IMG/VR virus record: IMGVR_UViG_3300046543_000056
Coordinates: 1-27,542 of that record
Length of the DNA: 27,542 nucleotides
From: a virus
Reading direction: 5' to 3' (one strand)
Shown here: positions 2,274-24,351 of the stretch, one piece after another
Layout: every line of letters starts with the position of its first letter
Position numbering within the stretch: position 1 is the stretch's first letter
Position numbers and translations under genes: made by a program
The notes under the pieces: generated by a model
What the model was told of the DNA's origin: nothing
What the model saw: the letters and a program-made list of their open reading frames with translations, nothing else
Databases searched by the model: none

Positions 2274-5200
2274 CACTTCCCTCCTAGGTTATGCCGTCGC
2301 CACTCGTCGAAGGTTCGGGAGTGCTTGTCCGTCGTGCCGTAGCGGGCCCCGACCAGCGCATCCCACGGACCCTTGGGCTTCTCCCGACCTTGCGCGTAGT
2401 TGTAGATGTACTCCGCAAGCTTCCCTTCTTGGGCATTGGTGAGGCCAGTGAGGACGCCGTTCAGCGCGAAGGTGTGCTTGAGTATGTTGGCCGCCTTGTC
2501 TTTGGTGAAGGCTTCCTTGCCCTTCGATAGGTCGCGGGCAAGATCGGTACCGGTCTTGAAGGTGGTCCCGAGCAGGCCCGCTTGCGGATCCCGAACGTTA
2601 ACCACAGCCCGCACGAAGTCCCTAACCCCAATGAAGCTCGAACTAACCCCCATCGCAACGGTGGTTGCGGCCTTCTTCCCCCACGACTCATGCTCGTCGT
2701 TGGTCATTGGGGTCACCAACTCCTCAACCACGGCCGGGAGGATCACGTACGAGAACAACCCTTGCGCCAACTCCGGGATCGTGCGTTTGGCATCACGCTC
2801 GCCCTTGATCATATCGCTGGCCTTCCAAGCCAACTCATATTGCTTCTGCTGCATGTGGGAGAAGAACCCATACAGCGAGGAGAAGTAGGCCCCGAGCGCG
2901 TTCGTTCGGGCAATCGCTGGCTTGTTGGAGAGGACCGATGAGCCATGAGCCTTACGGACCGCACGATTCGCAAGGCTCACTGCCATGCCTTCGTCGGCCC
3001 CTTCGGAGATCTGCCGCTTGTACTCTGCCGCCCAAGTCGGTACCGCCGAGACCAGGTCCGACACAGCCACAGGCTTCGCGCCCATATTCATTACAAGCTC
3101 GCGTACCGTCATGAACGTTGAGCCACTTCCTCGAATACTCATCTCGGCCCCATGGCCTTGGATGAGTTCATTGAAGTTCCGCATCCGGCGCTGAAGTTCC
3201 TCAGACTTATCGATCGATTCCTTCCATGTCTTGCGTCCGTTGATTGTCTCGGCCATAATGTTCCAGAACTGATGGAGGTAGTTAAGAGCACCAACCTCAG
3301 TCATAGAGTTGAAGAACGCCGTGGTCCCGTGCTTCATAACCGTCGACGGGTTGAGCCCGATCAAAGTCGCGATCGTGTTCTGGCGGAAGTATTCCAACGC
3401 CTTATCCCCAAACTCCGTCGACATCGACTTGAAGTTCGGCGAGTTCGCAATGTCCCGCAGGAATGGGATCATCTCCTTGGCCTGATGCGGTCCGTAGTGG
3501 GCCGTCATGGCCTGTTCGAACTTCGGGTTGTAGAAGATCTTCGCCATCTGGAGCACGGCCGGACGCATCGCGATGTCATGGATCATTTGCTTCATGCGCT
3601 GCGGGATCACATCGAGGTTCAGTTCGACCGGCGCGACATACCCCGTGCGTTCTTTGAACCAACCTTGAGGCGTAGTGGCCCGGAAGTGCCCTTCATCCTC
3701 CAACACATTCCCGCCCATCAACTTCCGACTCCCGCCCGGACGGAACTTGTCGTACTTAACCGGATTGTACCATCCCGCGTACTGACCGAAAGGCGTGTCA
3801 ATCGGCTCGAGCGGCAGGCGCTGGATGCTGACCCCAGAGATATGATGCGACATGTTATTCGCGAGGTCATACAACTCGTTAAACACATCCCCAATCTTCT
3901 GCGCCCGATCCCAATCCTCCTTGGTCGTGCGGGCGTGGAGCCAGTCCAGGACCTGCGAGGTCTCAAGCCCGTACCCACTCGCCAGCTTCCAAAGGTTGTT
4001 CTTGTTCCCGGCCTGCTGGAGAATCCCTAGGACATTCCGCTTCTGCATGGGGAAGTACTCCCCAGTCAGTGGGTCCTTGAAGAGATCGTTCGCGACCTGC
4101 TTGTCGATGTCCTCGATCTTGCCCAAGGCCGCAAGCTTGGATTGGTACTGTTTAATCAATCGATCCTTGTAGTTGCTGGCCTCAGTGTACTGGTGGGTGA
4201 GGGTCTGATAGAAGATCCCTCGCGGATCATCCCGATCCAACCGGTTCAGCATCGTCTCGACCGTGATCCCGGACCACCACCAGGACTTAACCGTCGACTT
4301 AACCCCCGGCTTAGGCCCTCCGATCGGCACCTGCTGGGCGGGACCGAGGGACTTAATCTTCGCGATCATCTCATCCAGCACCGCCTGGAGATCCGCCTTC
4401 TCGCCAGCCTTGTTGACCTTAGCCTCCATGCGCGAGACATAGGTCAGGGCGTCGAGGGCGGTCTTGGTTTCGGTGAACTCCCGAGCCGTAAGGTTCCCGG
4501 TCGGCTTGCGGAAGTTCGGGTCCTGAAGCCACTCGGGAACATGGAGATCGTACAGTTGGGCCGTCTTGGCCTCCACAAACTCCTTCAGCCCACCATACCC
4601 ATTCTTCGCGAAGCTCTCTTGCAGGTCCTGAACCGACCGGCCACCGTTGGTCTCCCCCAACCGCATGAGGATGTCGTGGACCGCGTCGGTGTATTCCGGC
4701 GTGGCCCCGCTAACCACCCGCTCTGAGTACCGATCCGCGATCTTGTCAAAGGCCTTCTTCTGTTTCTCCAGCCCCCGCGCATAGTTCGCAAACTGCAACG
4801 CGATATACTGCTGTTGCTTGGATTGGAACGCGTCGGCGTAGTCGCCCTTCAACAAGGCTAGCTCGGTCTCCCGTCCAGTCCGGCCCGCAGCTTGGAGGTA
4901 CGCATCCTCGCTGATCTTCTCAATTGGGGTCTTGTCGAACTCGTCCTTAACCCAACTCCGCACCTGCTCGCGCGTGATGAAGTCCTTATCGAACCCATGC
5001 TTCAGCCCAAGGGCATGCATCTCCTCATGGAGCAGGTTCAGCTGGGTCTCGCTGGTCGCCCGATCCTTGGCCTCCTCAAGAACCTTGGCCTCAAGGTCCC
5101 CATACCGCAGGGACATCTGCTCCTCGGTCTTCATCCCAATGAGCCGGTTCGAATACTCCCGCGCCGACATGTTCGCCTGCATCTTGGGGCCGTTGTAATC

Positions 5201-10417: not shown

Positions 10418-10840
10418 TTACTTGCCTACAATCTGGAAGGGGATATAGTCCTCACCCGTGTCATTGAACTTGGCCCCAAGCCATTTCAACCAACGGATCG
10501 AGGAGCGTTCGTGGCGATCCGTAAGGCCAACGATCTTGGGGTAAACCTCAAGCATTGCCTCCATAACCAGCTGGGAATACCGCACGAAGGTGAACTTGTA
10601 CTGCTCGACCAACGGGGTATGATAGAGCCAGAGGTAGGCCTCCTCGGCCAACAGGCTCGGCGGGATCAGCCCGCACGCACATACCACCTCCCCATTGATC
10701 TGGCCAACCCATATATGCGTCGCTAGGGCCAAGCATGAGTCCAGGTTTTTGACCTCCTGTTCTGTAATGCTCTCACCCTTCGAGGCCAAAATCAAGGCTC
10801 TTGTCTTTTCGCGATCGGTAACTTGGATGGTTGCGTTCAT
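10418..10840 (-). CDS. gp13-like protein with GNAT acetyltransferase fold
   Basis: 140 residues, close to the length of T7 gp13 (about 138). The central part (AYLWLYHTPLVEQYKF) and C-terminal part (VGLTDRHERSSIRWLKWLGA) follow the pattern of GNAT N-acetyltransferases: strand, helix that would hold acetyl-CoA, then the Asn/Arg-Ser...Lys-x-x-Lys-x-x-Gly end. Proteins of this family sit between the tail nozzle and gp14 in T7-like phages and are needed for virion maturation; catalysis is not established for them. The start at 10840 (MNATIQVTDREKT) is preferred to an upstream in-frame start at 10918, because it overlaps the stop of the nozzle gene (ATGA) and the extra residues would lie wholly inside that gene. 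Confidence 0.8.
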   Translation of the reverse strand: MNATIQVTDREKTRALILASKGESITEQEVKNLDSCLALATHIWVGQINGEVVCACGLIPPSLLAEEAYLWLYHTPLVEQYKFTFVRYSQLVMEAMLEVYPKIVGLTDRHERSSIRWLKWLGAKFNDTGEDYIPFQIVGK

Positions 10841-13446
10841 TTCGGCGTATCTCCCACGGTCACCTGCGGGATCACCCCGAGGATTGAAGCAGGGAATGGG
10901 TTGGGCTGTTCGATGCAATACTGGCCCGGGACCGTCCAGCTGGGATCGAGGCGGGTCATTGCATCGCCGGTTACGAGATCGGTCACAACGGCGTTCGTTG
11001 CGGATCCAACGTTCCCCCGGACGAGGTCCTTCATCGGCACCAGCGTGGAGAAGGTCTTGCCGATCTCGAGCCCGAGGGTGTCATTGACCCGCACCGTCAC
11101 GGCCGGGATGGTCTTCATCTTCCCTTGGATCGTCGGCTCGCCAGTATCGAGTTGGAGAGTCTGGAGTTGGGGTGTGTAGCCCAAGCCGACGGTCACGCGA
11201 GTGTAGCCGGTCGCTGGAGCAGGCGGAGCCGGGAGAGTGAACACACCCGAGCCCGGCATCGCGAAGGGAGTGATGATCGTCACGTTCCCGAGGTTATCGG
11301 TCGCAAGCCCAGTGACCGTTGCGGCCGCAAGGTGGGCCGCCCCCGAGAAGGTCAGGACCGATGCGCCGTTGTATTGGAGCCCTGCGTCCACAGTCCACGC
11401 GTCCGTAAGGCCGGTGGGGTAGTAAAGTTCCGCCATACGCTCAATATACCGCACCGGCGAGCCGTTGATCGTCCGCTCGACCACGGTGTAGAGAGCGTCC
11501 ACCGCCCCCGACGCTACGGTCTCGGTGATCGAGGCCACAGACTCGAAGACTCCTTGGGTGTCCGAATGGGCCCAAGCGATCAACTCCTGTTCCTTAAGGA
11601 AGGTCAGGCTGAGGAGGACTCCATCATTCCGCACAGCCCAGACGGTCTTGAAGGGTTCCTCACACCAAGCCCATTCGAGGATGGTGAAGCCGTAGAAGAG
11701 GTGGCTGGACAGGACGCTGATGTCTGTTCCGGTATAGACCTGCGTGTAGAAGTTGAAGACGAGATCTCGGACGATGGAGCCTTTGGACTGCACATATAAA
11801 ACATTGTCATTCGCCACTAATGGGGGTGGATGGGAAGCGCCGTTGTAGGCTTGGGTGTTGGCAACAAGGCTGGCCGGTGTGACCACCGATCCCGGCGATC
11901 CGCCGTTCAACAACCAAGCTTGCTTATCGGACAGGATGATAAGGCCTTGAGGCTGCGGGACCAGCGATTGGATTGTGTTCAATTGCCCCGACACTAAGAC
12001 CCCTTGAATGGCATCGCTGGCCTCTAGCGGGGAGTGGATGTCGAAGTTATAGTAGGCCCCGGTCTGGGACATGTTGAATTGCTGCGGCGACAACACCGGC
12101 CCAGCCAACACCAACCGCTGTTGGAAGAACCCGGGCACCGTGGGATTGCCGGACGAGGCCGTACCGAGGTTGGCCGTAGCCGTAGCGCCACCGCTGGAGA
12201 TCACCACCGCTGGGGCTGAGGTATAGCCCACGCCGGGGGAAGAGACGTTGATGTCCGTTAGGGCCCAAGTGAGGTTGAATGCCGCCCCAACGCCAGTGCC
12301 CGAGGTCGTGGCTTGGGCAACTGGATTGGCAGGAATGGTGCCGGTGGACAGGGCTCCCGGTGAGGTAAGTGAGGCGGTAACAATGAAGCCGCCAAATGAA
12401 GATGTGACGAGGACTACAGCTCCAGGTACACCTGCTAGAGTTATTGTATCACCTGTGTTGTACAGTGCTCCTATCGGTGGCGTGAAGGCAATTGATTGAA
12501 CGGCCAACACCGGCACCGCTGTTGCGCCTGACCCGCCACCGCCAGTAAAGAGCACATTCGGAACCGGATCGCCAGGGCTGTACGTGCCTGCGCCAGTGAG
12601 CGTGACCGAAATCACCCCCGTGCCTGAGAACGGATCCTCAACGATCGGCGGCCCTTGCGAGAAGTCCGGCGAGATGTTGGAGTCAATCAAATCGGTCCCG
12701 GTCACATTGCCCACGAACCCAAACGCCGACCCAACCGGAATGGCCCCAGCATAGGACGGTTCGGCCTTGTAGATGTTGTAGCTCGCCGCGCCGGTGACGG
12801 CAGTCCATGAGACGGTGTTGGTCCCGGCCGTGATTCGGAGATCGGTCTTGGAGGCGAGGGTCGCGTAGGTTGAGATCGCAGACTCTTGCCCATTGGTATC
12901 GACCGAGGTCACGATGTAGGCGTAGTTGACCGATCCCGAGGCGAGGGTGGACGCAACCGTTGGGCCAATGGGCGGCGTGATGGTTGAGCCGAAGGTGATC
13001 GGCGCTAGGGTCCAGTTGGTCGAGGTGATTAGGGTCAGAAGGTAGGGCGGGAAGTTGGGATGGCAGATGACGAGGGTATCGACGTTCTGGGCGAACTTGA
13101 GTTGGGCCAAGTCCGCCGCAGCGTAGGGTGACACAATCTCGTACGGCGACATCCCGCTCATCACCTGCGCGCCGTTGTTGATGAAGCGCACGTAGCCGTC
13201 ACCGAACTCAAGGACGTAGCTGACAGTGAAGGAGGCTTGGAACGGGATCAGTCGAGTCGTGTTGTTGAACTTGGTCGTGGTGATGTAGCGCGTGCCCGCT
13301 CGAGCCGTCGCACCTCCGCGATAGTCCACGAAGAAGTTTCGCAGCAGCGCGGCCCCGGAATGGTACTTGGTAAGATCAACCCTCGCGTTCAGGGCCGGTG
13401 CCCATTCGCCAGAGTTGAAGGAGGTTTGGATTACCGGTTGCGCCAT
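10837..13446 (-). CDS. gp12-like tail nozzle protein (tail tubular protein B) with inserted beta modules
   Basis: 869 residues. The first 60 residues (MAQPVIQTSFNSGEWAPAL ... RNFFVDYRGGATARAGTRY) are the hallmark of podovirus nozzle or stabilisation proteins. The later FFQQRLVLAGP followed by a GAYYNFD element (about 440-470) is the conserved core. Between them lies a fibronectin-III-like segment (about 157-260) and an insert (about 275-428) rich in Gly, Ser, Thr and Val, with GGGGSGA and GVGYTSAPAVVI patterns. Part of the insert resembles one in the gp11-like gene. The protein should form the tail tube tip through which DNA leaves. The start overlaps the previous TAA (TAATG), the stop overlaps the next start (ATGA). 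Only three cysteines, no signal peptide: a normal cytoplasmically assembled virion protein. Confidence 0.88.
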   Translation of the reverse strand: MAQPVIQTSFNSGEWAPALNARVDLTKYHSGAALLRNFFVDYRGGATARAGTRYITTTKFNNTTRLIPFQASFTVSYVLEFGDGYVRFINNGAQVMSGMSPYEIVSPYAAADLAQLKFAQNVDTLVICHPNFPPYLLTLITSTNWTLAPITFGSTITPPIGPTVASTLASGSVNYAYIVTSVDTNGQESAISTYATLASKTDLRITAGTNTVSWTAVTGAASYNIYKAEPSYAGAIPVGSAFGFVGNVTGTDLIDSNISPDFSQGPPIVEDPFSGTGVISVTLTGAGTYSPGDPVPNVLFTGGGGSGATAVPVLAVQSIAFTPPIGALYNTGDTITLAGVPGAVVLVTSSFGGFIVTASLTSPGALSTGTIPANPVAQATTSGTGVGAAFNLTWALTDINVSSPGVGYTSAPAVVISSGGATATANLGTASSGNPTVPGFFQQRLVLAGPVLSPQQFNMSQTGAYYNFDIHSPLEASDAIQGVLVSGQLNTIQSLVPQPQGLIILSDKQAWLLNGGSPGSVVTPASLVANTQAYNGASHPPPLVANDNVLYVQSKGSIVRDLVFNFYTQVYTGTDISVLSSHLFYGFTILEWAWCEEPFKTVWAVRNDGVLLSLTFLKEQELIAWAHSDTQGVFESVASITETVASGAVDALYTVVERTINGSPVRYIERMAELYYPTGLTDAWTVDAGLQYNGASVLTFSGAAHLAAATVTGLATDNLGNVTIITPFAMPGSGVFTLPAPPAPATGYTRVTVGLGYTPQLQTLQLDTGEPTIQGKMKTIPAVTVRVNDTLGLEIGKTFSTLVPMKDLVRGNVGSATNAVVTDLVTGDAMTRLDPSWTVPGQYCIEQPNPFPASILGVIPQVTVGDTPK
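12163..12624 (-). other. Inserted beta-rich module within the nozzle gene
   Basis: Encodes about residues 275-428 of the gp12-like protein. Low-complexity Gly/Ser/Thr/Val sequence interrupts the conserved nozzle core. The stretch around 12265-12360 encodes NPVAQATTSGTGVGAAFNLT, closely similar to NPVAQGSTTGSGTGATFNLT in the insert of the gp11-like gene. Bases 12361-12480 look poorer in GC than the flanks. Confidence 0.6.
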
Positions 13447-14093
13447 TAACCACGGGTCCCTGGAGTTGAGGGCGGGGGAACGATGAAGTTGGAGACGTTG
13501 ACAACCGAGCCGACGGAGCCGCCCACGTTGCCGGTGACAGAGCCCACTGAGCCCGAGAGGTTGCCTGTGATATTCCCTGTGAGATTGAAGGCCGTAGCCG
13601 CATTGGCCCCAGCGATCAACAGCCCATTAGCAGCCCCCGGCGCAGCGGTCGGGATTGGCTGTGGATCCCAAGCCTCGAAGGAGAACCCTCCCCAAGCATC
13701 CGCGCCTGAGGCATCATCAGGGCCGCCGTACTTAATATTGCTCGCGGCCACTACCGCCTGAACCGCGTAGGCAGCATCTACATTAAGAGCTCCTGGCGTA
13801 AGGCCAGTGACCACAAACTCCGCACTAGCCTGTGCAATGGTTGTAGCAAAATTCGCCTGCGGGGCCGCCCTGCCAAGGATGACCGCGCCCGCCATTACCC
13901 CAAGGAGGATCGCTGGGACTGTGACTGCGGTGTCGATCGCGCAGGCTAAACGAAAGAGAACCTTCCCATGCGCCGGAACCACCACAGCCAACCGGAGATG
14001 GGTCGTGTCCAATGCTGTCATCGCCAATAGGCTGGCTGTGGACTTGCTAACGGCCCCAGCCGGATCATACAACTGTGATGCAAGGAGGTTCAT
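13446..14093 (-). CDS. Beta-rich tail appendage/fibre-like protein with Gly-Ser-Val repeats
   Basis: 215 residues. Residues 1-115 look like a beta-sandwich attachment region (alternating hydrophobics). A middle region has Trp and aromatics (ADAWGGFSFEAWDP). A C-terminal low-complexity repeat (about 169-198) reads as GNxxGxxxGSVGSV units such as GNLSGSVGSVTGNVGGSVGS. Such short glycine repeats occur in trimeric phage fibres. Position between the gp11-like and gp12-like genes suggests a structural tail protein. The ATG at 14093 overlaps the upstream TGA (TGATG). A TTG codon directly before it at 14096 could also be read as the start, but the ATG is more likely. I do not recognise a named family. 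Confidence 0.65.
   Translation of the reverse strand: MNLLASQLYDPAGAVSKSTASLLAMTALDTTHLRLAVVVPAHGKVLFRLACAIDTAVTVPAILLGVMAGAVILGRAAPQANFATTIAQASAEFVVTGLTPGALNVDAAYAVQAVVAASNIKYGGPDDASGADAWGGFSFEAWDPQPIPTAAPGAANGLLIAGANAATAFNLTGNITGNLSGSVGSVTGNVGGSVGSVVNVSNFIVPPPSTPGTRG
13500..13589 (-). repeat. Gly/Ser/Val-rich short repeats in fibre-like protein
   Basis: Encodes residues 169-198 of the 215-residue protein, with repeated GNxTGN and GSVGSV units. In DNA this shows as recurring ccgacggagccgccc / ccactgagcccgag-like segments. Imperfect repeat of roughly 12-18 bases per unit. Confidence 0.6.
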
Positions 14094-15181
14094 CAATACG
14101 CGGGCAGAAGCCCTCCCCAGTCGAAGCCGGAGTACGGCCCAGAGACGTAGCCGTCGTTCCAGTTGATCCCACGCACGCGGATGAAGTCGGGCGTTACGTC
14201 GTTGACCGTGAGGGCCTCATTCCCATCCACCTTCCTGGCCTCCATGATGGACATATTCGCCAGCTGGATACACATATTGGCTAGGGCCTTATCGCCCGTC
14301 AGGCCCATGACGATGTCCGCGCCCAGCTTGTTCGCCATCGCGTCCTGGAACATCGGGTCCCAGACGTTCGGGTCGGTGACTTGCTTGACGTAGGCCAGCG
14401 TGGCGAACTCTTGGTTCGTTACGATGACTCGCTGGGATCCCCGCGTTCCAAAGGTAAGATTGAAAGTAGCGCCCGTTCCCGAGCCAGTCGTCGAACCTTG
14501 AGCGACCGGATTCGTTTGAGCTGCGAAGTACGATCCACCAAGTGGCGGCGACGTTGCGTCAATGACTTGGGAGATGACGGTGACGGCCGTGATGACTCCG
14601 CCAGCGACCGTGGCCACTTCCAGAACTGCCGGAGCCCCGATAGGTGGATCAGTATTGGCACCCGCCACAAGCGTAATTTGATCCCCAACGGCATAGCCCG
14701 AACCTCCGACTGCGACAGCGGCTGCGGTGACTGGGATGAATTGATCAATCTGGGTCTTGAAGCGGATCGGGGTCCCGAGCCAGAGTGACGAGGCACCGCC
14801 TGTGACGGCGGTGGTGATCGGGACGCCCGAGGCAAAGCCAGTCTGGGTGGCCGGAATGATGTAGCAGGCCCGCAGACAATCACGGGGGTATTGGTATTCG
14901 TAAGCCCACGGCGGGGGCGGCTGTCCGGGCTCCCAGAGGTTGGTGGCCGGGGAGGTGTTCTCTGGGGTGCCCGGCACCGAAGTGATGTAGGTTAGGTTGG
15001 CCGTAGCAAGGCCGCAATCCCACGGCGCGAGGCGGAGCAAGCTATCCCGGGTGTTGTTGTAGGTCAGGTTAGCTTGAATCGCCTCGTTCGTGGTGTTGTT
15101 CACAAGCTCCGCATCGGTAACCGTCGTGCGGGATCCGAACGCCTGGAGCGCGAGGTTAACGATGTCGGTCTTGGTGGTCAT
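14093..15181 (-). CDS. gp11-like head-tail adaptor (tail tubular protein A) with inserted module
   Basis: 362 residues against about 200 for simple members. The N-terminal part (TDIVNLALQAFGSRTTVTD... ARDSLL-type helix, LRLAPWDCGLATANL) and C-terminal part (NVWDPMFQDAMANKLGADI ... ARKVDGNEAL) are the conserved adaptor or gatekeeper pattern that joins portal to nozzle in T7-like podoviruses. The extra length is an insert at about residues 150-248 with GGSGYAVGDQITL and NPVAQGSTTGSGTGATFNLT. The beta-rich insert is probably displayed on the outside of the tail. The start ATG overlaps the previous TAA (TAATG). The stop overlaps the ATG of the fibre-like gene (TGATG). Family assignment is firm from termini and neighbours. 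Confidence 0.85.
   Translation of the reverse strand: MTTKTDIVNLALQAFGSRTTVTDAELVNNTTNEAIQANLTYNNTRDSLLRLAPWDCGLATANLTYITSVPGTPENTSPATNLWEPGQPPPPWAYEYQYPRDCLRACYIIPATQTGFASGVPITTAVTGGASSLWLGTPIRFKTQIDQFIPVTAAAVAVGGSGYAVGDQITLVAGANTDPPIGAPAVLEVATVAGGVITAVTVISQVIDATSPPLGGSYFAAQTNPVAQGSTTGSGTGATFNLTFGTRGSQRVIVTNQEFATLAYVKQVTDPNVWDPMFQDAMANKLGADIVMGLTGDKALANMCIQLANMSIMEARKVDGNEALTVNDVTPDFIRVRGINWNDGYVSGPYSGFDWGGLLPAY
14438..14734 (-). other. Inserted beta-rich module within the adaptor gene
   Basis: Encodes about residues 150-248 of the gp11-like protein. It splits the conserved adaptor sequence between the FKTQIDQ and RVIVTNQEFA segments. Its GGSGYAVGDQITL and NPVAQ...FNLTF elements match the module in the gp12-like gene, pointing to a shared origin. 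Confidence 0.65.
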
Positions 15182-15648: not shown

Positions 15649-15852
15649 TCAGTGCTTCCCTTGGCTGCCGCAGTTGGAGGTGGTGCAGGAGACGGGCGCA
15701 GGAGCCATATAGCCCCGGCCAGCCCCGAGCGGAGTGGGATTGGAGACGACGGCGATGCCAAGCTGGGCCGCACCGCCCGGATCGATCGCATGGGCGGTGG
15801 GCTCAACCTTCATCCCGCCCGGGCCGTTAGTGGAGGCTTGTCCTTGTTTCAT
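15649..15852 (-). CDS. Small Gly/Pro-rich protein with CGSQGKH C-terminus
   Basis: 67 residues, low complexity at the start (MKQGQASTNGPGGMKVEP), a central hydrophobic-polar part (GGAAQLGIAVVSNPTPLG), then GYMAPAPVSC and the end NCGSQGKH. Similar small proteins starting MK(V/Q)EP and ending in QGKH or a like motif are found in related phages near tail genes, without assigned function. Shares its C-terminal motif with the 62-residue protein at 15181-15369. The start ATG overlaps the preceding TGA (ATGA). Two cysteines near the C-terminus (SCTTSNC) could pair. Confidence 0.65.
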   Translation of the reverse strand: MKQGQASTNGPGGMKVEPTAHAIDPGGAAQLGIAVVSNPTPLGAGRGYMAPAPVSCTTSNCGSQGKH

Positions 15853-16244
15853 GTGTGGCTTCCTTTGAATGTAAGCTGCTGCTTGTGGTCGTACCGGTTG
15901 TCGGGATCGGCAGCCATCTCCCGACGGATCTTCTCAATCGCGCCGCCATCGGTATTGTGTTCCTTGAGGATCTGGCGGTAGCGATCATCAAGGCGTTCGA
16001 TTTCCTGGAGGACGTGTTTGGGTGGCGTGGTGCCGTGTTCCTCATACATATACTTGATGTCATGGAGGTCGTGAAAGTAGTTCGCGAACCGGCGAAGGGA
16101 CTCGGGAACTTCGCTCTCGGCGCTGCGATAGAACTTTAGCAGTTCGGTATTCTGCTGACGGATGATCTTCATATCATCCGCGATACGTTTGAGGTAGACT
16201 ATCTCAGGATGATGTTCTTCAAATACACGTTCGGGATCAGTCAT
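15849..16244 (-). CDS. Conserved helical phage protein of unknown function
   Basis: 131 residues, strongly helical and charged: an N-terminal coiled coil (about 15-45, IVYLKRIADDMKIIRQQN) and a C-terminal segment with aromatic and acidic pattern (FANYFHDLHDIKYMYEEHG), then REMAADPDNRYDHKQQL. I have the impression that this C-terminal pattern recurs in podovirus-like phages next to tail genes, as a hypothetical protein. No enzymatic motif or membrane segment. The start at 16244 is chosen because the upstream in-frame extension to 16475 runs through two other genes and is Arg/Pro-rich, like a shadow frame. It overlaps the end of the 58-residue gene by eight bases. Confidence 0.75.
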   Translation of the reverse strand: MTDPERVFEEHHPEIVYLKRIADDMKIIRQQNTELLKFYRSAESEVPESLRRFANYFHDLHDIKYMYEEHGTTPPKHVLQEIERLDDRYRQILKEHNTDGGAIEKIRREMAADPDNRYDHKQQLTFKGSHT

Positions 16245-16423: not shown

Positions 16424-18010
16424 CTACTTCACATCGTTCATCATTGCCGCGAAACAGAAGGTTGAGGTTCGGCATTGGTAGTTGAGGATGTCTACGGCAT
16501 TAGCTGTTGTGGTAAGCGTCGGTGTTGTGCCGCCTGCGAACTTGAACTTTGAATCCCAAACCGTGGTATGCATACCGCCGCTGTCTTGAATGAAGGTGAT
16601 CGAGCCGGACTTGCCCACAGTCACGTTGGAAAGTGTCATCGTGGTGATGTTGCCGGTTAGTGTCACAACCGCGTCGCGGAACGTAGCCATATCGAAGACG
16701 GTCGTGGTGCCGTAGGTAACGGTGACTTCGGGCGGCCAGATTGTGCTTGGGGTAACGATCTTATTCGCGGCAGTCCCGGCGTACATGTCAGCGAAGGTAG
16801 CAATGGCGTACTCACCAACTACGCCGTTGTTGTTGTAGATGATGTTGGTGTTGCTACCGCTGGTGATGGTGGTCACACCAACAGTAATGTTATCGTTGTT
16901 GAGCCCAGCATCAGGCGTGGCCTTGATGATCCAGTCAAGGGTGACAGAAGGTTGAACATTGGAGAATGGGGTCGAAGTGCCACCTTGAGCAGCGCCAGTG
17001 AAGCCTCCACTGGAGAGGGACGCGGTGATGCCGGTGGTTGCGGGTGCGACTGTGACTGTATCGTTAACAATATTCTGTGGTCCGCCAAAGTATTGAACAC
17101 CGCCAAAGCCGATGCTTATGTGCTGGCCGTCGGTTGCGGCCGTATGTGTGTGACCGGGGTCGTTGATGTTGATGGTGCCAGTAAAGGAGCCCGAAGGAGT
17201 ATAGGCAGGTAAGTTAGACGTGCCAAGGGTTGCGGACTGCGCTCCACCAAGGGCGTTGAGTGCATCGGGATTGACGCCGTAGTAGGTCGAGGTCAAGACA
17301 CCTGCGGCGGTGCCCTGCATATTGTCTCGGCCAAGGGTCGCACGGCCTTGGAGGTTAGGGACATTGAAGGTTGTGGAGCCGTCACCGTTGCCCCACGGGA
17401 ACATACGAAGGGTGGTAGAGGTGCTAGCGCTAGAGTTGGCACTCATGGTCAGGGTGGTAGCACCCTTAGAGATAACACCGGTTCCGGGCGCGAAGCAGGC
17501 AGAGGCTTCGATTGGAGCACCGATCGGTGCCCGCTGAGCAGTATCGGCAGAAACGGTTACGGTCGGGGAGCCACTGGTACAGGTGATGCTGTCGGAGGAG
17601 ACAATAGCGCTAAAGAGGTGGGAGTATGTAGAACGCGATACCGCTTGGCCGTAAGTAAGGAGGTAGGTCGGCGGGACCGTAGCACCTGCCCAAGGAAGGA
17701 TGCTGCCGACCACGGCCGAACCGCCACCACCTGTGCAGGTGATTACGCCAGTGTTGGTGATAGTGCAATCACCCGACATCGTCCGCGCGGTGGCAACGTT
17801 GGAAACATTGCCGATGAAGATTTCTCCATTGGGCAACGCGGGTGTTGAGTTCGCATGAACGAATCGAGTATTGGCACAGGCGTTGGAGCTATCGCTGGGC
17901 GGCCGATCGGAACAGGTAGTGTTCTGAGCCCAAGCGACTTGATGCTCGGCGGGCAAGATAGCCCAACCAAAACCTAAGGCAACGCAAAGGGTCAGAAGGA
18001 GCCGTTTCAT
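16424..18010 (-). CDS. Signal-peptide-bearing tail fibre-like protein with phage collar domain
   Basis: 528 residues. Residues 1-28 form a Sec signal peptide (MKRLLLTLCVALGFGWAIL..., cut after AWA before QN). Residues 101-230 are a phage tail collar domain: VGSILPWAG, GQAVSRSTYSHLFSAI, GDGSTTFNVPNLQGRATLG. The HTHT element follows at 287-290, and NVQPSVTLDWIIK closes the region (351-363). About 65 residues (138-205) with Cys144 and Cys172 are inserted where the collar normally has a short loop. The C-terminus (about 430-528) is a beta-rich tail-tip-like domain ending FCFAAMMNDVK. Eight cysteines remain in the mature part. The start at 18010 overlaps the previous stop (ATGA) and removes an implausible Arg-rich extension to 18088. 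Receptor binding is the likely role; export is unusual for a virion part. Confidence 0.82.
   Translation of the reverse strand: MKRLLLTLCVALGFGWAILPAEHQVAWAQNTTCSDRPPSDSSNACANTRFVHANSTPALPNGEIFIGNVSNVATARTMSGDCTITNTGVITCTGGGGSAVVGSILPWAGATVPPTYLLTYGQAVSRSTYSHLFSAIVSSDSITCTSGSPTVTVSADTAQRAPIGAPIEASACFAPGTGVISKGATTLTMSANSSASTSTTLRMFPWGNGDGSTTFNVPNLQGRATLGRDNMQGTAAGVLTSTYYGVNPDALNALGGAQSATLGTSNLPAYTPSGSFTGTININDPGHTHTAATDGQHISIGFGGVQYFGGPQNIVNDTVTVAPATTGITASLSSGGFTGAAQGGTSTPFSNVQPSVTLDWIIKATPDAGLNNDNITVGVTTITSGSNTNIIYNNNGVVGEYAIATFADMYAGTAANKIVTPSTIWPPEVTVTYGTTTVFDMATFRDAVVTLTGNITTMTLSNVTVGKSGSITFIQDSGGMHTTVWDSKFKFAGGTTPTLTTTANAVDILNYQCRTSTFCFAAMMNDVK
17396..17599 (-). other. Insert inside the collar domain
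   Basis: Encodes residues 138-205 of the fibre-like protein. It has the pattern of a widespread phage beta module (alternating Thr/Val, GAPIEASACFAPGTGVI, TTLTMSANSSAST). It replaces the usual few-residue loop between the SRxxYxxLF and GDGSTTF elements. Confidence 0.55.
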
Positions 18011-18399
18011 GTATTCGACTCCATCACGGTAAGGGCGACGCCGGTGCCTGCGCCGGTGACCGCTAGGGCCTGCCATGCACCTTGGCATTCGCCTGTGACA
18101 GTAAGCGCACCACCATTGCCATAGACCCGGAAGCTGCCACCTAACGCTGCGTTTGAGAGGGTCAAAGCAACATTGGATGGGGTGATCGGCGCGGTGCCAA
18201 GAACATTCTGCACGGACTGTGGCGCGACGAACACGTCAAAGGAGTTTGGGTTGTGGAACGTGATCGACTGCCGCGAGGGATTGGCTTGCGCCACAATCGT
18301 CGGGGTCGTCTCGTTGATATTATTGTACCCATAGACCTTACCCCCACTGGCCGAGGAGAAGGCTAGGGGAGACCCCGGTCCAGTGGAGATAATGCCCAT
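18007..18399 (-). CDS. Beta-rich virion-associated protein of unknown function
   Basis: 130 residues without signal peptide. The middle reads NPSRQSITFHNPNSFDVFVA, then LGGSFRVYGNGG and a C-terminal GAWQALAVTG. This is the layout of a small beta-barrel or sandwich found repeatedly in phage decoration and tail proteins (Arg, then a strand with hydrophobics, then xNPS or xNxD). The C-terminal domain of the exported protein at 22110-22907 has a similar run (AGRHGFTIANIDTTEPLWI), so the two may share a fold. The start overlaps the preceding TAA (TAATG), and the stop overlaps the fibre gene start (ATGA). It sits inside the exported block, yet appears cytoplasmic itself. Function unassigned. Confidence 0.7.
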   Translation of the reverse strand: MGIISTGPGSPLAFSSASGGKVYGYNNINETTPTIVAQANPSRQSITFHNPNSFDVFVAPQSVQNVLGTAPITPSNVALTLSNAALGGSFRVYGNGGALTVTGECQGAWQALAVTGAGTGVALTVMESNT

Positions 18400-18917
18400 T
18401 ACGCCCTCCGTTCGACGACGGGTTTGTTGGTCAGCGCGGCCATCATGGTTGCCTGCATCTCAGCCATTTGCGTCACGGCCTTAGTGAGGGCAGCGACATC
18501 GGCCGAGGGCGAGGCCTCAACCTTGGCCTGGATCTTCTCCATGTCGGCGTGGAAGCCGTCGATGAGGGATTGGGAATAGGAGGTGGTTAGGTTCTCGATC
18601 GGGTGCTTCCACTTGCCCGCGAAACTGGCCGAGATCGCCTTGGCTTCCTCATCGAGTGGGAGCATGTCAGGGGTCGGGTCGCCACGAAAGATGTAGTCAC
18701 GCGGGTGATCATCCGACGGCGCATTCGCCACAATCACATCGCCATCATCCTGGCCCTGTTTATAATTCCAATCGCTGGGATCGTACGGGCTGAGGTGCTG
18801 CGGGACCTCGAACTCCTTACGGATGTTCCGGCCCGTCGTGCGGTCGGTCTCCTTATATTCCCAAGTATTCCCGACGATGTTGAGATAGTGAGCGTTGAGT
18901 AGTTTCCATCTAGCCAT
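18399..18917 (-). CDS. Conserved phage protein of unknown function (WEYKETDR...)
   Basis: 172 residues. N-terminal part MARWKLLNAHYLNIVGNTWE then YKETDRTTGRNIRKEFEVP is a mixed alpha/beta region. The middle has DYIFRGDPTPDMLPLDEEAK and FAGKWKHPIENL. The C-terminus (about 110-172) is a coiled coil (HADMEKIQAKVEASP...VTQMAEMQATMMAAL). I have the impression that proteins with this start and the TPDMxPLDxEAKxIS motif occur in other phages as hypothetical proteins near structural genes. No cysteine, signal or membrane segment. A GGAGG site lies five bases before the ATG. Its stop overlaps the next start (TAATG). Function unknown, possibly a chaperone or structural accessory. Confidence 0.75.
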   Translation of the reverse strand: MARWKLLNAHYLNIVGNTWEYKETDRTTGRNIRKEFEVPQHLSPYDPSDWNYKQGQDDGDVIVANAPSDDHPRDYIFRGDPTPDMLPLDEEAKAISASFAGKWKHPIENLTTSYSQSLIDGFHADMEKIQAKVEASPSADVAALTKAVTQMAEMQATMMAALTNKPVVERRA

Positions 18918-18929
18918 TTTGGCCTCCTG

Positions 18930-19649
18930 TTACCAGCCACAGAATCCTGTAGGCGGGGCGTGTGCGAATGTTTGATCGAAGGTAGCTACGTCGGTTGTTG
19001 AGTTATCCCCCGACATACCGGGATAGACAGTAGCACCAGTAAAGACGCTGGATACATTAAAGCCGTTGGTGCCTGTAACGGGATCCGGCGATGGACTGAA
19101 TGAAGCTCCGACCCATCCTGTACCACGTGTATAGTTGTTGACCCATGCGAATTTGGTGTTCATATCAATCGCAAAGCCGATCGTGGCAGCGACCAATGCA
19201 TCAATGCTATTGCCTTGTGACACACCAGCGATATGTGCAAGACCATCGTTACGGAACCAGAGTGAGGCACCGCCGGGGAAGTTGCCGAGGGCTTCAGCGC
19301 CAGTGACGAAGCAAAGGCCATCAACGTCGAAGATGTTACCGGTCCAGGTTGTGGTGGTGATTTCGAAATACCATTTCCCTGAGGCATGGCCGATCACGGT
19401 GCGGACACCGCCAAAGGCGTTGGTGTTGGTGGCCACCGTGTTACCGCTGGAGAGCACAAATGATGCGCTCTTGTCTGCGGGGTTCCATGTATCGGTTGAG
19501 GCGCTAGCGCAACTAGGTGGCGGTGACGCACAAAGGGCTGGGAGGCACCCACCAAACTGGGCCTTGGCCGGACGAATGATTGCGGGGGCAGCAAGCAGCC
19601 CCAACAATGCATTTCGTCTGGTGAGGAGCTTCGGCACTACAGGCCCCAT
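18930..19649 (-). CDS. Tat-signal SPRY-like adhesin-type protein
   Basis: 239 residues. The N-terminus has a twin-arginine signal: LTRRNALLGLLAAPAI (Arg11-Arg12) and a cleavage site after AKA30 before QF. Residues about 54-237 look like a SPRY/B30.2 beta-sandwich: SGKWYFEITT, then SLWFRNDG, IGFAIDMNTKFAWVNNYT and PTGFCGW at the end. Such domains bind proteins or sugars and are found on phage tail appendages. Five cysteines in the mature part (C35, C40, C47, C113, C237). The start at 19649 overlaps the end of the upstream gene by 13 bases. Tat export would deliver the protein folded to the periplasm, which is odd for a virion protein. A Sec route cannot be excluded. Confidence 0.72.
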   Translation of the reverse strand: MGPVVPKLLTRRNALLGLLAAPAIIRPAKAQFGGCLPALCASPPPSCASASTDTWNPADKSASFVLSSGNTVATNTNAFGGVRTVIGHASGKWYFEITTTTWTGNIFDVDGLCFVTGAEALGNFPGGASLWFRNDGLAHIAGVSQGNSIDALVAATIGFAIDMNTKFAWVNNYTRGTGWVGASFSPSPDPVTGTNGFNVSSVFTGATVYPGMSGDNSTTDVATFDQTFAHAPPTGFCGW

Positions 19650-22108
19650 TTGTTCTTGAGATAGAGATCGAGTTGCGAAACCGTTGCCGCATTGGAGAAT
19701 CCGGTAGCTACTCCGGCTTCGGCAATAGCACCATCGAAGCGAGACGGATCGCCAGCAATGGAGGTATCACCAATGGCAAGGATCCCGGCGGAAACCCAAT
19801 TACCCGACGCCGTCTGAGTCGACTGCGCAACTCCGTTTATATAGGTTGTGATAACACCAGATGCGTTGATCGTACCAATTATTCGATAGTTGTTTCCAAT
19901 AACGATAGTGCCAATGGATTTCTGAAGATTGCGGAACATATATGACTGTGGTGAACTGTTCACCGTGTCTAATAGCCACGAACCTGCGTTATCATAATCA
20001 TGCGAAGCAGCAGCGGCAGTATATGACCACAGACGCGCATCGTTATCGCCACCACTGGTACGGCGCATAACCGCCCATGTGGTGATTGTATTCCCGGTAC
20101 CCATTCCATAGCTGGACTTAGCAAGGGATTGACCGGGGGAACCTGCGAATAGCAATGATGGGAATGAGGTATTGAAGCCCGTGGCACTGTAGGTCGGCTT
20201 GGCTATCGCGCCGTTGACCCCGAACACATAGGCATTCGAGCTTTGATCGGTGATGCTGTTGACGGTTGAGCCAGTTAGATTGAGGCTGGCTGTGACGCTA
20301 GCATCTAGCCAAGTAATGACGCCGCTAAGATCCACATTCGGATTGAATGCGTTCGTAGTGAATGAGCCTGCGGGGGTGACTGGGGAATTGAAGTTTGTGG
20401 AGATACTATGTAGGAAGAAGGTGTAATAGGTTGTGGACGCGGCGAGCCCCGTCGTTGAAGCGGTATTGGCTCCAACAATCGGTGAGCTAATGGTGCCCGC
20501 GTATGCCCCAGCCGCGCCTGTACCATCTTGGCCAGCAATGATTTGCGTAGCGCTGGGTGTAACGCTACTGGTTGATTGTACAATATAGATCGTGCCGCCG
20601 CTGCGGTTGGAGGTAACGGATACACTAGAAGCTATGGCCCCAACTGTTGTTGCCGACGGGCTCGTTAGCGTTGGGGAGTATTTGACCTGTAGGTAGGTGT
20701 CGAGGCCGGTGACATTGCCCGCATCCAAGAATGTATTCGAGATTCCAACTTCAGTAACCTTGCCGTCCCAATAAACACCAGTGGGATCGTTGAGACTGAT
20801 ACAAACGCCTGCGGTCCCACCCGTGGTCCAATTGCCCGCGCTGGCGGATGAGGTTTGCCACAGTGTTCCATTGACATAATACTTCATTATGCCGGAAGAA
20901 TCGATGGTGCCAATCAGACGTACTGGCGTCAGTGGTTCATCGGCCGCGAATCCCATGCCTACACTATTACGTACCATCTGTAGAGGTGCGTTACCGCCCT
21001 TGCGTGCCATGTTGAACGAGGCGGCGTTATCGTAATCGTGTGCTTGGCCCAAGGCGTTGTAGGAAAGAAGACGACCATCAACACCGGTGTTGGTTGTGAA
21101 GGTATTGATAACCCAGAAGCTAAGGGTATTGCCGGTTCCGAGCGGAATACTGGCGGATGTCATTCCCTGTGTGGATGCGGCGGTGCAGGTCATTGTTGGT
21201 AGGCCATTGAGGCCTGTGGCGTTATATTGTGGGCTATTGGAGCCCGAACGTACAACCAGACTATGGCCATTGCCGCTCTGATCGGTGACGCCAGTGACGT
21301 TCGCGCCGCTGGTGCTTACGCTACCTGCAACGGTGAGATCCCACCAAGCAACGGTACCAGTAACTGGCCCTGTGCCAGTGCCCGCTGCCCAGATTGCTAA
21401 CGCGATCTTGGGGTTGCTGCTGGTTGGATTGATTGCTGAGGTAAGGGTCTTGCCATTGCCGCTGAGTGCGCCTGAAGCAGCTATGCCCCATAAGCCCGTG
21501 CCGCAAGCGGTGGAGAAGTTGTTGATAAGATTGGAGAGAGTGGTCGAGACATTGGTCGTACGGGAGCCTGCCGCGATCGCGACCTGTTTGTTGTTGTAGG
21601 CCTGACTTACACTGGTCGTGCCTGTGGTCGTGGCGATTGGGACAATGGTAGTGTAGCCTATGAGGCTATAGATTCCAATGGTTAATCCATCAATCGCAGT
21701 TGACGCTGTTACAACAATGTTGGCCGAGGTGCCGAGTGGATTGGAGACATACCAGATCTCGGAATTGGAATTTTGATTATCTCCCGAGGCTCGTACAGCA
21801 CGAGCCATAGGGATGCCTCCAACGGTAACAGATGTAAGTTCGGCTGTCCCCGCAGCGGTACTATCGCTCCAATTGATTGATAGAACAGTGATACGCGAAG
21901 GTGCAGCGGGGCCAATACCTTGCGCGGTGAAGGTAGTGACCGTGCCAGAAACTGCCGAACAGGCTTGGCCGATTGGAGTCGGTGGAGTGCCGCCGGTTGG
22001 ATGACAAAAGCCAATATGGCAATCACGATTGAACTGCGCATCGGCAGGCGTTGCTTGCAGATAGCAAACAGCTAAGGCTGCGAAGAGAAATGCTGCGATG
22101 CGCTTCAT
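19637..22108 (-). CDS. Large exported protein with two LamG-like domains
   Basis: 823 residues. A Sec signal peptide (MKRIAAFLFAALAVCYLQAT, cut after ADA24 before QF). Residues 50-245 are a beta-sandwich of a type common in phage appendages (SRITVLSINWSDS, LTSVTVGGIPM, SEIWYVSNP). Two concanavalin/LamG-like domains follow: 250-477 and 596-823, sharing DQSxN, HDYDNAxS, GTIxxSG, YxNG, ASxGNW and the final LDxYLxxK motif, joined by a fibronectin-like linker (478-585). Six cysteines remain after cleavage. These domains usually bind carbohydrate, so surface glycan binding is likely. The start at 22108 is one base after the upstream TAA and places the signal at the very N-terminus; the longer in-frame form to 22153 is rejected. 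GC is lower here (about 50% in 19981-20040). Confidence 0.8.
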   Translation of the reverse strand: MKRIAAFLFAALAVCYLQATPADAQFNRDCHIGFCHPTGGTPPTPIGQACSAVSGTVTTFTAQGIGPAAPSRITVLSINWSDSTAAGTAELTSVTVGGIPMARAVRASGDNQNSNSEIWYVSNPLGTSANIVVTASTAIDGLTIGIYSLIGYTTIVPIATTTGTTSVSQAYNNKQVAIAAGSRTTNVSTTLSNLINNFSTACGTGLWGIAASGALSGNGKTLTSAINPTSSNPKIALAIWAAGTGTGPVTGTVAWWDLTVAGSVSTSGANVTGVTDQSGNGHSLVVRSGSNSPQYNATGLNGLPTMTCTAASTQGMTSASIPLGTGNTLSFWVINTFTTNTGVDGRLLSYNALGQAHDYDNAASFNMARKGGNAPLQMVRNSVGMGFAADEPLTPVRLIGTIDSSGIMKYYVNGTLWQTSSASAGNWTTGGTAGVCISLNDPTGVYWDGKVTEVGISNTFLDAGNVTGLDTYLQVKYSPTLTSPSATTVGAIASSVSVTSNRSGGTIYIVQSTSSVTPSATQIIAGQDGTGAAGAYAGTISSPIVGANTASTTGLAASTTYYTFFLHSISTNFNSPVTPAGSFTTNAFNPNVDLSGVITWLDASVTASLNLTGSTVNSITDQSSNAYVFGVNGAIAKPTYSATGFNTSFPSLLFAGSPGQSLAKSSYGMGTGNTITTWAVMRRTSGGDNDARLWSYTAAAASHDYDNAGSWLLDTVNSSPQSYMFRNLQKSIGTIVIGNNYRIIGTINASGVITTYINGVAQSTQTASGNWVSAGILAIGDTSIAGDPSRFDGAIAEAGVATGFSNAATVSQLDLYLKNKWGL
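19640..20323 (-). repeat. LamG-like domain copy 2
   Basis: Encodes residues 596-823, the C-terminal copy of the duplicated domain, ending LYLKNKWGL. It keeps the same motif order as copy 1 and lacks the cysteines found there (C308, C436). Confidence 0.7.
20678..21361 (-). repeat. LamG-like domain copy 1
   Basis: Encodes residues 250-477. Shares with copy 2 the ordered motifs WxD, DQSxN, SPxY/KPTY, GTGNTxxxW, HDYDNA, GTIxxSG, Y(V/I)NG, GNW, DG..xEx(G) and LDxYLxxK. A diverged internal duplication visible at protein level. Confidence 0.7.
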
Positions 22109-22109
22109 A

Positions 22110-22907
22110 TTACCAAACCGTGCAGGAGTACTTGTGTGAAGTGGTAGCGGCAATCACCGATAGCGCAGTATTGATACCCATTCCCGGCGGCGAGGTAAAG
22201 GACGTAAGGTTGGTAAAGGCGGTGGCATCAGCTTGTCCAAGTGGGTAAGACCCAGTGCCAGAAGCCGCTGCGGTTGTGGTAAAGGAGATCCATAGCGGTT
22301 CGGTGGTGTCGATGTTAGCGATGGTGAAGCCGTGACGACCTGCATTCGCGGTGAAGGCATTCTGGGCAGCGCCGCCCGAGGAGATTGTGCCCGAGCAGTC
22401 GGTGAGGGTGATATTGACTGCGCCTTGAGTAGCAGCGTTGACTGAGAAGGCAGTGTTGTCTGAGGCGATTGTAACACGTTGGGAGCCTGTGCCAGTGACG
22501 CCGTTGCCCATTAGGGGCGTGACGCCATTAATCTGGGCTTCGTTAATGGCCGAGTTGGCATCGGGAGTGACCAAGAGTTTGGTCATCGAGGCAATGCCTT
22601 GGACGGTAACTACGCCCGTGGCTGCGGTACCTGCGGTACCTTGACCTGAGACGACCCACGGGACTGTGCCTTGGGTTACCGATCCACCTCCGCTACTTCC
22701 ACCTCCATCACAGAGTTTGCCGGTGGTATCCATCATGAGGAACCCAACCTTGCCAGCCGTGTAGGTGGCAGGTGGGGTGCCGCAGTTGGCGACGATTGGG
22801 ACGCCCAGCACAGAGACTCCGGCTGGGGGCGGCATGGTGAACTGTTGGGCCAGCGCCGGACTGGCTAGCCCTAAGAGGATCGTCAGTCCGGCGAGGAGTT
22901 TCTTCAT
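22110..22907 (-). CDS. Exported beta-rich phage protein
   Basis: 265 residues. A Sec signal peptide (MKKLLAGLTILLGLASPALA, cut before QQ). The mature N-terminus is Pro-rich (FTMPPPAGVSVLG) with Cys at NCGTPP. A GGG(S) linker follows (DGGGSSGGGSV), then repeated Gly/Thr/Val strands. The C-terminal domain has DCSGTISSGGAAQ, GRHGFTIANIDTTEPLWI and ends SHKYSCTVW; this resembles small beta domains seen in phage decoration and fibre proteins. Four cysteines in the mature part. The start at 22907 overlaps the previous stop (ATGA); an extension to 23021 has no signal and lies within the next gene. Likely a surface or fibre-like protein, but the export is unexplained. Confidence 0.75.
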   Translation of the reverse strand: MKKLLAGLTILLGLASPALAQQFTMPPPAGVSVLGVPIVANCGTPPATYTAGKVGFLMMDTTGKLCDGGGSSGGGSVTQGTVPWVVSGQGTAGTAATGVVTVQGIASMTKLLVTPDANSAINEAQINGVTPLMGNGVTGTGSQRVTIASDNTAFSVNAATQGAVNITLTDCSGTISSGGAAQNAFTANAGRHGFTIANIDTTEPLWISFTTTAAASGTGSYPLGQADATAFTNLTSFTSPPGMGINTALSVIAATTSHKYSCTVW

Positions 22908-23353
22908 GATGCGCTCGTGCAGATGTACGCGATCTTCGAAGATGCGTTTGAGGTTTGGGTGATGGTTAGGGCCGTGGTGGAGGTAGTCCAAGACATCGCG
23001 GCTAGCGGGCCGGTCTGCCATGAGACTACGCAGTTCGGGGCCGTTACAAAGGCGGTACCGAAGGTCACAACGCAGGAGGTCGAGGCAGTAGTGCCTGCGG
23101 TGATTACGCCCGAGAGATCGGTACCGGTGATGAGCGGCGAACCGCCCGTCGAGCAGCCGGTGAGGACTGGCAGCAGCTTCCCTGCCGTGGGCGAGAGGAT
23201 GTGGGCTGGGAAGTAGACGTTGTTGTTGGTGTCAACGCTAATGGCCCCGGTTGGGTCCTGAGAGAGTTGAACCGACTTTTGGGCTATCGCAAGGCCACCC
23301 GCCAAGGCCAGGATTAGGAGCGACGGGATGATGTGGCGAAAGTATTTCATCAT
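22904..23353 (-). CDS. Exported protein with tail-fibre-like C-terminal domain
   Basis: 149 residues. N-terminal Sec signal (MMKYFRHIIPSLLILALAGG, cut after AIA24 before QK). Residues 25-60 are polar with NNNVYFPAHI. From about residue 65 onward is a compact beta domain with paired cysteines: GCSTGG, TSCVVTFGTAF, APNCVVSW, AYICTSAS. This C-terminal pattern (Cys-Val-Val-Thr-Phe, Pro-x-Cys-Val-Val) is common at the ends of phage fibre proteins. Four cysteines in the mature part could form two disulfides. The first of two adjacent ATGs, at 23353, overlaps the previous TGA (ATGA). The stop overlaps the next start. Exact role unknown. Confidence 0.75.
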   Translation of the reverse strand: MMKYFRHIIPSLLILALAGGLAIAQKSVQLSQDPTGAISVDTNNNVYFPAHILSPTAGKLLPVLTGCSTGGSPLITGTDLSGVITAGTTASTSCVVTFGTAFVTAPNCVVSWQTGPLAAMSWTTSTTALTITQTSNASSKIAYICTSAS

Positions 23354-23817
23354 GCGATCCTATACCAAATCTTAGAGGAAGCTTTGTACTGCCAAGCCGG
23401 GAAGGAGGCATTGGCGGTGAGGGTTTGAGAGTTGAAGGTGGTCGTGAGGGTATCGCCCGAGCCTGCGGTGACGGTGACCATCGTGGTGAGGGTCGTGTCG
23501 GTGCAGAGGCGGACTACGGTACCGTCGGCCGGAGCCGCAGGGAGGGTGACCGCCCAGGTCGTAGGGGCCGTCGAGACCCAGCAAAGCGTGCCGGGGGTTG
23601 CGGTTGAGGTCGCGGAGCCCGTGCCCGATTTGGTCGTGATGGGCTGGGAACCACGAACGGTATTGATCCCGATGTAGGATCCGGGACCGCCGGGACCTTG
23701 CCCGACAACCCAAACCTCGTTGCCCGAGATCGAAGTCTGGACAACCTGTTGGGCAAGCACAGCGAGTGGGGCCATAAGCCCCACTGCCAATGCGACCCAT
23801 AAGAGTCGTTTGTTCAT
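23350..23817 (-). CDS. Exported small fibre-like protein
   Basis: 155 residues. Sec signal peptide (MNKRLLWVALAVGLMAPLAV, cut after VLA22 before QQ). The mature N-terminus (QQVVQTSISGNEVWVVGQGP) leads into Gly-rich GPGGPGSYIG, then a beta-rich domain (about 70-155) with LCWVSTAP, WAVTLPAAPADGTVVRLC, TVTAGSGDTL and the end KIWYRIA. That domain pattern is typical for C-terminal parts of phage appendage proteins. Two cysteines in the mature part. First gene of the exported block, nine bases after the cement gene. A GGAGA site precedes the ATG. Function unassigned. Confidence 0.75.
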   Translation of the reverse strand: MNKRLLWVALAVGLMAPLAVLAQQVVQTSISGNEVWVVGQGPGGPGSYIGINTVRGSQPITTKSGTGSATSTATPGTLCWVSTAPTTWAVTLPAAPADGTVVRLCTDTTLTTMVTVTAGSGDTLTTTFNSQTLTANASFPAWQYKASSKIWYRIA

Positions 23818-23826
23818 CTGGCTCTC

Positions 23827-24351
23827 CTAGTTCGCGACATTGATGCCAGCTTGATAACCACCCATGGTTTGGTTGGCTGTCGAGTTGTACATCTGATCAT
23901 CGCGATCGAGAACGATGAAGGAGGAGAGGTAGCCAGTGACTGCGCCCACGCCGGTGTAGACGAGCTTGAGGAAGCGTGGGACCGCGATGCCTGCCGGTGG
24001 ACGCGGCATGTCCATGTCCAGAAGGCGGGCACCGGCGACGAGAGTGGCCGTGGCGTAGGCAGGGGATGCCCACCAAGCCGAGAAGGCTGCTGGGGTGCCC
24101 GTGCCGGAATCAACGGCACCTTCAAGGGTGATGGAGAGCGACGTGCCGCCGGAATAGGTCGTCATGACCTGAACCATGAGCTTCATCGCAGGATCATCGC
24201 CGATACCGATGTCACGGGCACCACCACCATTCGCGTAGGAGGGGATACCGGAAACGATGCCGAGGTCGATGATGTTGGTGGAGTCCTGTGTAGTGCCGGA
24301 CGGATTCACCAAGACGTTGTTGTCAAAGGCGAGTAGTGCGTCGAGAATCAT
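23827..24351 (-). CDS. Bbp16-like capsid cement protein
   Basis: 174 residues, no signal peptide, no cysteine. Follows the pattern of the BPP-1 Bbp16 cement family: MILDALLAFDN at the start, STNIIDLGIV, then ARDIGIGDDPAMKLMVQV, a middle beta region with SLSITLEGAVD, LVAGARLLDMDMPRP and PRFLKLVYTGVG, and a final strand with SFIVLDRDDQ. Cement trimers lock capsid subunits together after expansion. It lies directly after the major capsid gene, as in BPP-1. A GGAG site stands eight bases before the ATG. Family assignment is strong from the motif set and the neighbour. Confidence 0.87.
   Translation of the reverse strand: MILDALLAFDNNVLVNPSGTTQDSTNIIDLGIVSGIPSYANGGGARDIGIGDDPAMKLMVQVMTTYSGGTSLSITLEGAVDSGTGTPAAFSAWWASPAYATATLVAGARLLDMDMPRPPAGIAVPRFLKLVYTGVGAVTGYLSSFIVLDRDDQMYNSTANQTMGGYQAGINVAN

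Follow-up and report, generated by a model that had tools for sequence, protein, structure and literature searches.

Introduction

In the podoviruses BPP-1, BcepC6B and phiV10 (Rauchvirus, Ryyoungvirus and Uetakevirus), the genes for portal, scaffold/protease, MCP (phrog_212), Bbp16 cement and tail proteins follow one another in that order, and the cement gene almost adjoins the tail tubular gene. A single 68-aa gene lies between cement and tail gene in BPP-1, and in BPP-1, BcepC6B, phiV10, Ab31, Shamal and others this slot holds one or two small genes. BcepC6B has an annotated tail fiber after its internal virion genes.

Folding of tail parts normally takes place in the cytosol, and the assembly of tailed phages is taught as wholly cytoplasmic. 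Llp of T5 is a phage-coded exported protein with a signal peptide and an envelope destination, and the coat proteins of filamentous phages are virion proteins made as Sec precursors, the virions being extruded through the membrane. Lambda Lom is likewise phage-coded, carries a signal peptide and is envelope-bound; it is a beta-barrel expressed in lysogeny (PMC12309495). According to one paper, the targets of phage DGRs lack signal peptides (PMC6199706). In the open-licence literature on phage-fiber signal peptides and related topics we found no report of exported tail fibers.

The locus described here resembles these systems in part. Its block proteins are predicted to be exported as Lom is, but they form a multi-gene set with fiber domains inside the virion operon, in place of a single beta-barrel. 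As in filamentous phages, putative virion proteins appear as Sec precursors, whereas here a cytosolic origin is presumed for the dsDNA capsid and the tail. We regard it as evenly poised whether the block encodes receptor- and glycan-binding appendages built in two compartments, that is, split fibers whose exported parts would dock at lysis.

Results and discussion

Identity of the window and borders of the block

The window is the whole stretch of DNA analyzed, an IMG/VR virus contig of 27,542 bases. Judged by its genes, it is part of a BPP-1/epsilon15-like podovirus, because its MCP, Bbp16-type cement, scaffold/protease, head-tail adaptor and tail families match those of this group; it also has the same order, including a phrog_212 MCP followed by the cement. 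No cultured phage in the collection has an MCP more than 54% identical to that of the window (best cultured relatives, 46-54%), whereas IMG/VR yielded 551 confirmed relatives, of which the 80 best are 87-100% identical.

The cement and tail tubular genes, nearly contiguous in the described phages, are about 8.6 kb apart in the window. As the original prediction placed it, the block lies between the Bbp16-type cement protein upstream (23827..24351, minus strand; Pfam Bbp16, E=2.6e-7) and a gp11-like tail protein downstream (14093..15181, minus strand; phrog_394, E=4e-39), and its assertion that a simple podovirus has no insert there agrees with the slots of the five named phages. This slot contains about 8 kb with six signal-peptide (SP) proteins, Sec-type, one of them Tat-like. 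Morons and superinfection-exclusion genes are marked by a separate promoter, lysogenic expression and sporadic presence. The block genes are packed head to tail among the structural genes, and relatives keep the slot persistently filled.

Two other places in the window deserve mention. A small ORF lies between tail and internal virion genes (10418-10918), where some relatives have acetyltransferase genes. The protein encoded at 999-1400, after an endolysin and a TM protein, has a lipobox-type leader, MRKIALVLALAAGLGGC, and is probably a spanin-like part of the lysis cassette.

Signal peptides of the block proteins

Leaders were called with a rule-based scorer built on a charged n-region, an uncharged hydrophobic h-region and the -3/-1 rule. 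The claim that six of eight consecutive proteins begin with signal peptides held: n-h-c leaders with the AxA site typical of Sec/SPase I export were found in six of them, all ending in A↓Q (↓, cleavage site), with scores of 11.6-13.3; with shuffled N-termini, 1.3% of trials reached 11 and 0.03% reached 13. The same scorer found no leader in the window's portal, scaffold, MCP, cement, both tail proteins or internal virion proteins. The true starts of three of the genes lie inward of the longest ORF (22110 at 22907, 19637 at 22108, 16424 at 18010), and each corrected start abuts or overlaps the previous stop.

All genes of the block are on the minus strand. A1 (23350..23817; SP MNKRLLWVALAVGLMAPLAVLA↓QQV, score 11.6) is a beta protein with a mature chain of 133 aa and 2 Cys; in its family the SP was called in 16/17, and the 17th is leader-like by look. 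A2 (22904..23353; SP MMKYFRHIIPSLLILALAGGLAIA↓QKS, score 13.3) has 4 Cys, with an SP called in 12/15 family members, two more being SP-like and the last one cut at a contig end. A3 (22110..22907; SP MKKLLAGLTILLGLASPALA↓QQF, score 13.0), which overlaps A2 through ATGA, also has 4 Cys; its family has an SP in 29/29, and conservation in its alignment is too low for scanning. The largest protein, A4 (19637..22108; SP MKRIAAFLFAALAVCYLQATPADA↓QFN, score 13.0), is adhesin-like, with a mature chain of 799 aa, 6 Cys and a weak match to phrog_10356, a virion structural protein. A5 (18930..19649; alternative GTG start at 19637) has a Tat-like leader, TRRNALLGLLAAPAIIRPAKA↓QFG (score 12.3-12.6), a phrog_10080 domain and 5 Cys.

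The two proteins without SP among the eight follow. A6 (18399..18917; SP in 0/35 of its family) belongs to the conserved core of the block, is cytosolic and serves as the slot marker; its AF2 model has a pLDDT of 87, and the fold search gave no match. A7 (18007..18399; SP in 0/18) is a small cytosolic beta-type protein whose stop overlaps the start of A8. The main fiber, A8 (16424..18010; SP MKRLLLTLCVALGFGWAILPAEHQVAWA↓QNT, 8 Cys), is predicted to be exported and combines an N-domain containing CxxRPxxDSSNACANTRFV with a Collar domain and a fiber C-end. After the fiber comes A9 (15849..16244, true start near 16244), a cytosolic helical protein that resembles family 12 members in sequence by eye and gave no match in the domain search.

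The division between leader-bearing and leaderless proteins follows families. In a first set of 42 related loci plus the window, from which 625 proteins were clustered, leaders were called in none of the core proteins (MCP 0/43, cement 0/42, scaffold 0/40, portal 0/35, A6 0/35, gp11-like 0/21, gp12-like 0/17), while block families scored 29/29, 16/17, 13/13, 12/15, 5/6 and 5/5; the exceptions in the block families have recognizable leaders just below threshold or are genes cut at contig ends. The scorer thus defined misses about ten true-looking leaders of relatives that fall just below threshold. The same split by family recurred in a second set, 73 loci retrieved through cytosolic A6, which also contained some real homologues without SP. 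Homologous blocks, which the original prediction proposed to seek in other phages, occupy the same slot in more than 100 related IMG/VR loci, as fast-evolving genes of families that almost always have an SP. Among 130 leaders, Q stands at +1 in 100 and A at -1 in 125.

A lipoprotein nature was considered for the six proteins of the window and rejected, the sites being A↓Q with no lipobox. In two relatives, more SP genes were observed upstream of portal/terminase, outside the usual slot (L012, about 3092-5100; L007, about 1422-2200).

Cysteine parity of the mature chains

Exported proteins favor an even number of cysteines (PMC7678975). The mature SP proteins have even numbers in 159 cases and odd numbers in 11, against 202 even and 255 odd for proteins without SP. 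Counted by sequence cluster, the figures are 21 even and 3 odd for SP proteins and 22 and 33 for the others (binomial p about 1e-4), and this count is the fair one because members of a family are not independent. The bias is the one expected of Sec/SPase I export, with the odd number of A5 as the exception in the window. Since the N-terminus was used just for sorting proteins into groups, parity provides independent support for export. The block SP proteins, with their bias to even cysteine numbers, are therefore probably exported and disulfide-bonded, and their predicted export can be considered well supported.

These data bear on two alternatives. It is quite improbable that uncleaved leaders tether the fibers at the inner membrane and that particles assemble there: the hydrophobic N-termini would suit such an arrangement, but the AxA↓Q cleavage site is kept, and the paired cysteines imply the oxidizing side of the membrane. 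Extremely improbable, in our judgment, is that the leader-like N-termini are functionless, either vestigial or an artifact of the rules, and that the proteins are ordinary cytoplasmic fibers. The leader calls do come from a rule-based scorer, and cytosolic folding is the general expectation for tail parts; however, presence or absence of leaders is almost family-wide in two locus sets, such scores are rare in shuffled N-termini, and cysteine parity points to export independently. Vestigial leaders were dropped because of this parity.

Appendage domains and receptor-binding candidates

Scanning the SP proteins of the window and its relatives revealed collar, tail fiber, tailspike, pectin-lyase-like, GTA head-spike fiber, SPRY, LamG and glycine-rich domains. 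The appendage-type domains originally ascribed to the block were confirmed in part: the Collar domain of A8 is firm (Pfam E=4e-13, with PHROG tail proteins also matched), whereas SPRY and LamG are significant in relatives only (E about 1e-4), and the only PHROGs matched by the window's own A5 and A4 are of unknown or structural type. The AlphaFold model of A8 (pLDDT 37) is too poor to read a fiber function from.

Fiber, collar and spike domains encoded inside a structural operon are what tail fibers and receptor-binding proteins would show. A8 is like tail collar/fiber proteins (Pfam PF07484; PHROG tail fibers) in its Collar and C-terminal fiber domains and differs from them by its SP, its paired cysteines and the lack of a recognized N-terminal virion-binding domain in the same chain; the leader stands there instead, and the candidate anchor of the SP fiber is a separate upstream gene. 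In four relatives of 44-50 kb, complete or nearly so, the genes that come after those for internal virion proteins included none of fiber type, so the putatively exported proteins are the sole receptor-binding candidates seen in these phages, although an unrecognized one may exist.

The main alternative, doubtful yet tenable, is that the exported fiber-like proteins act in the envelope or outside the cell, as secreted adhesins or glycan-active proteins. They might mask receptors on the producing cell and on its debris, block superinfection, or help progeny to escape by digesting exopolysaccharide. Export signals and paired cysteines, glycan-binding and lyase-type domains, and a high gene turnover are all compatible with such action, which accounts for export as well as split fibers do. 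It would, however, leave the four genomes without an identified receptor-binding protein; several proteins per genome are many for a blocker, and the window's six have neither an outer-membrane anchor nor a lipobox.

Pairing of proposed adaptors with fibers, and fused cytosolic versions

A small cytosolic gene, either A7 or f17, occupies the slot just before the main SP fiber. For A7, the next adjacent gene encodes an SP-type fiber in 25/25 loci, mostly with the motif CxxRPxxDxSNACAxTxFV; for standalone f17 (about 140 aa), all nine strong matches with an adjacent next gene (9/9) precede an SP fiber with a QCN start. A7-type and f17-type pairs never cross between classes. Elsewhere, f17 is fused into a single long cytosolic fiber of 442-1168 aa as its N-terminal domain, and no SP fiber was seen directly after these fused fibers. 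A similar case is the SP fiber L057_14815 (6 Cys): its body shares a homologous stretch of about 420 residues with cytosolic tailspikes, for example L175_12411 (1 Cys), and at the position of the leader these tailspikes have a widespread tail-protein N-domain. The association of f17 with SP fibers is strong, though not absolute, because in locus L170 a more distant standalone f17 is followed by a cytosolic spike of the L175_12411 type. For A1-A5, no obvious adaptor of their own was found.

On this basis we propose A7 as a candidate virion adaptor for the exported fiber. The pairing could instead reflect a linked cassette inherited together, without binding. With regard to action away from the virion, an SP fiber that lacks the N-domain of its cytosolic relative would be in keeping with it; the adaptor pairing is explained less well than by split fibers, and the genes are part of the virion operon and fill the slot that in relatives contains ordinary cytosolic fibers.

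Distribution beyond the clade

The clade's core proteins are all missing from three further loci (L234, L244 and L245), and L244 has an MCP of another family (phrog_9953). In L234 and L244, the gene directly preceding an SP fiber with 8-10 Cys encodes a homologue of A7 (E 1e-31 to 3e-33). The three appear as a lineage with another capsid type that has the A7 and exported-fiber cassette in common with the clade. In the cultured Synechococcus phages Ssp-JY42 and Yong-M4-211, an SP-bearing homologue of the A3 family (57% over 66%; 4 Cys) is encoded after the tail genes, next to a 786-aa protein that also carries an SP and has 10 Cys; these phages differ from the window in gene order and in having an integrase, and no A6 or A7 was seen in them. 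Because A7 pairs occur in L234 and L244 and A3-family and 786-aa SP genes in Synechococcus phages, the cassette is predicted to be mobile between phage lineages and not bound to one capsid.

Homologues of A1, A6, f16 and f27 were absent from 50,697 cultured phage records, and Acetobacteraceae and Agrobacterium prophages with 41-56% identical MCP have no such block. One further record, L111 (PQ492659.1, Limnohabitans phage DC33), carries the label Inoviridae, which looks wrong given its BPP-1-like capsid and tail gene order.

The phages with these predicted exported fiber and spike proteins are soil phages and widespread. As to hosts, MCP matches of 81% and 87% were found in a Terriglobia MAG contig (L082) and a Telmatospirillum MAG contig (L083), respectively; A6 occurred in no other genome among the 385 and 399 sampled of the classes of those two MAGs. 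As the MAGs belong to two different phyla, at least one of the two contigs is probably misbinned.

A proposed two-compartment model

The general idea of the original prediction, surface- or periplasm-directed phage proteins, is well supported by SP conservation and cysteine parity. Of the four options that it offered (receptor blockers, glycan binders, particles assembled outside the inner membrane, fiber parts with retained leaders), retained leaders are the worst fit, because the AxA↓Q site and the paired cysteines are kept. We favor receptor-binding fibers and spikes that would be exported and then attached to the virion at lysis, while glycan or receptor binders acting freely are a possible alternative.

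The split fiber is the simplest model that makes use of all these observations. In our tentative version, which we rate slightly below even probability, particles bearing adaptors would form in the cytoplasm, Sec-exported, disulfide-bonded fibers and spikes would stay in the periplasm until lysis and only then attach, and the cassette would cross unrelated lineages. The small adaptors (A7 or f17) would remain cytoplasmic and be built into the virion. Fibers and spikes would pass through Sec, one possibly through Tat, signal peptidase I would cut the leaders, and disulfides would form in the periplasm, where the distal fiber parts would be stored. At lysis the stored fibers would reach the particles and dock on the adaptors.

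The model builds on features read directly from the genes: signal peptides and their conservation, paired cysteines, fiber-type domains, adaptor-fiber pairing and fused cytosolic versions. From these we infer cleavage, periplasmic storage, docking at lysis and the part of A7 and f17 as docking partners. Docking only at lysis seems wasteful, as it dilutes the parts; phage parts of T4 taken from separate lysates and mixed give infectious virus (PMC9576892).

The findings suggest that virions of these phages may be completed only when the host bursts. If true, this would explain why fiber genes are missing from their expected place in these soil phages. If receptor-binding parts pass through Sec and fold with disulfides, the map of phage assembly, the annotation of fibers and the range of available receptor-binding folds would all change. 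The idea is directly testable, since Yong-M4-211, cultured on the laboratory strain Synechococcus PCC 7002, has homologous SP proteins.
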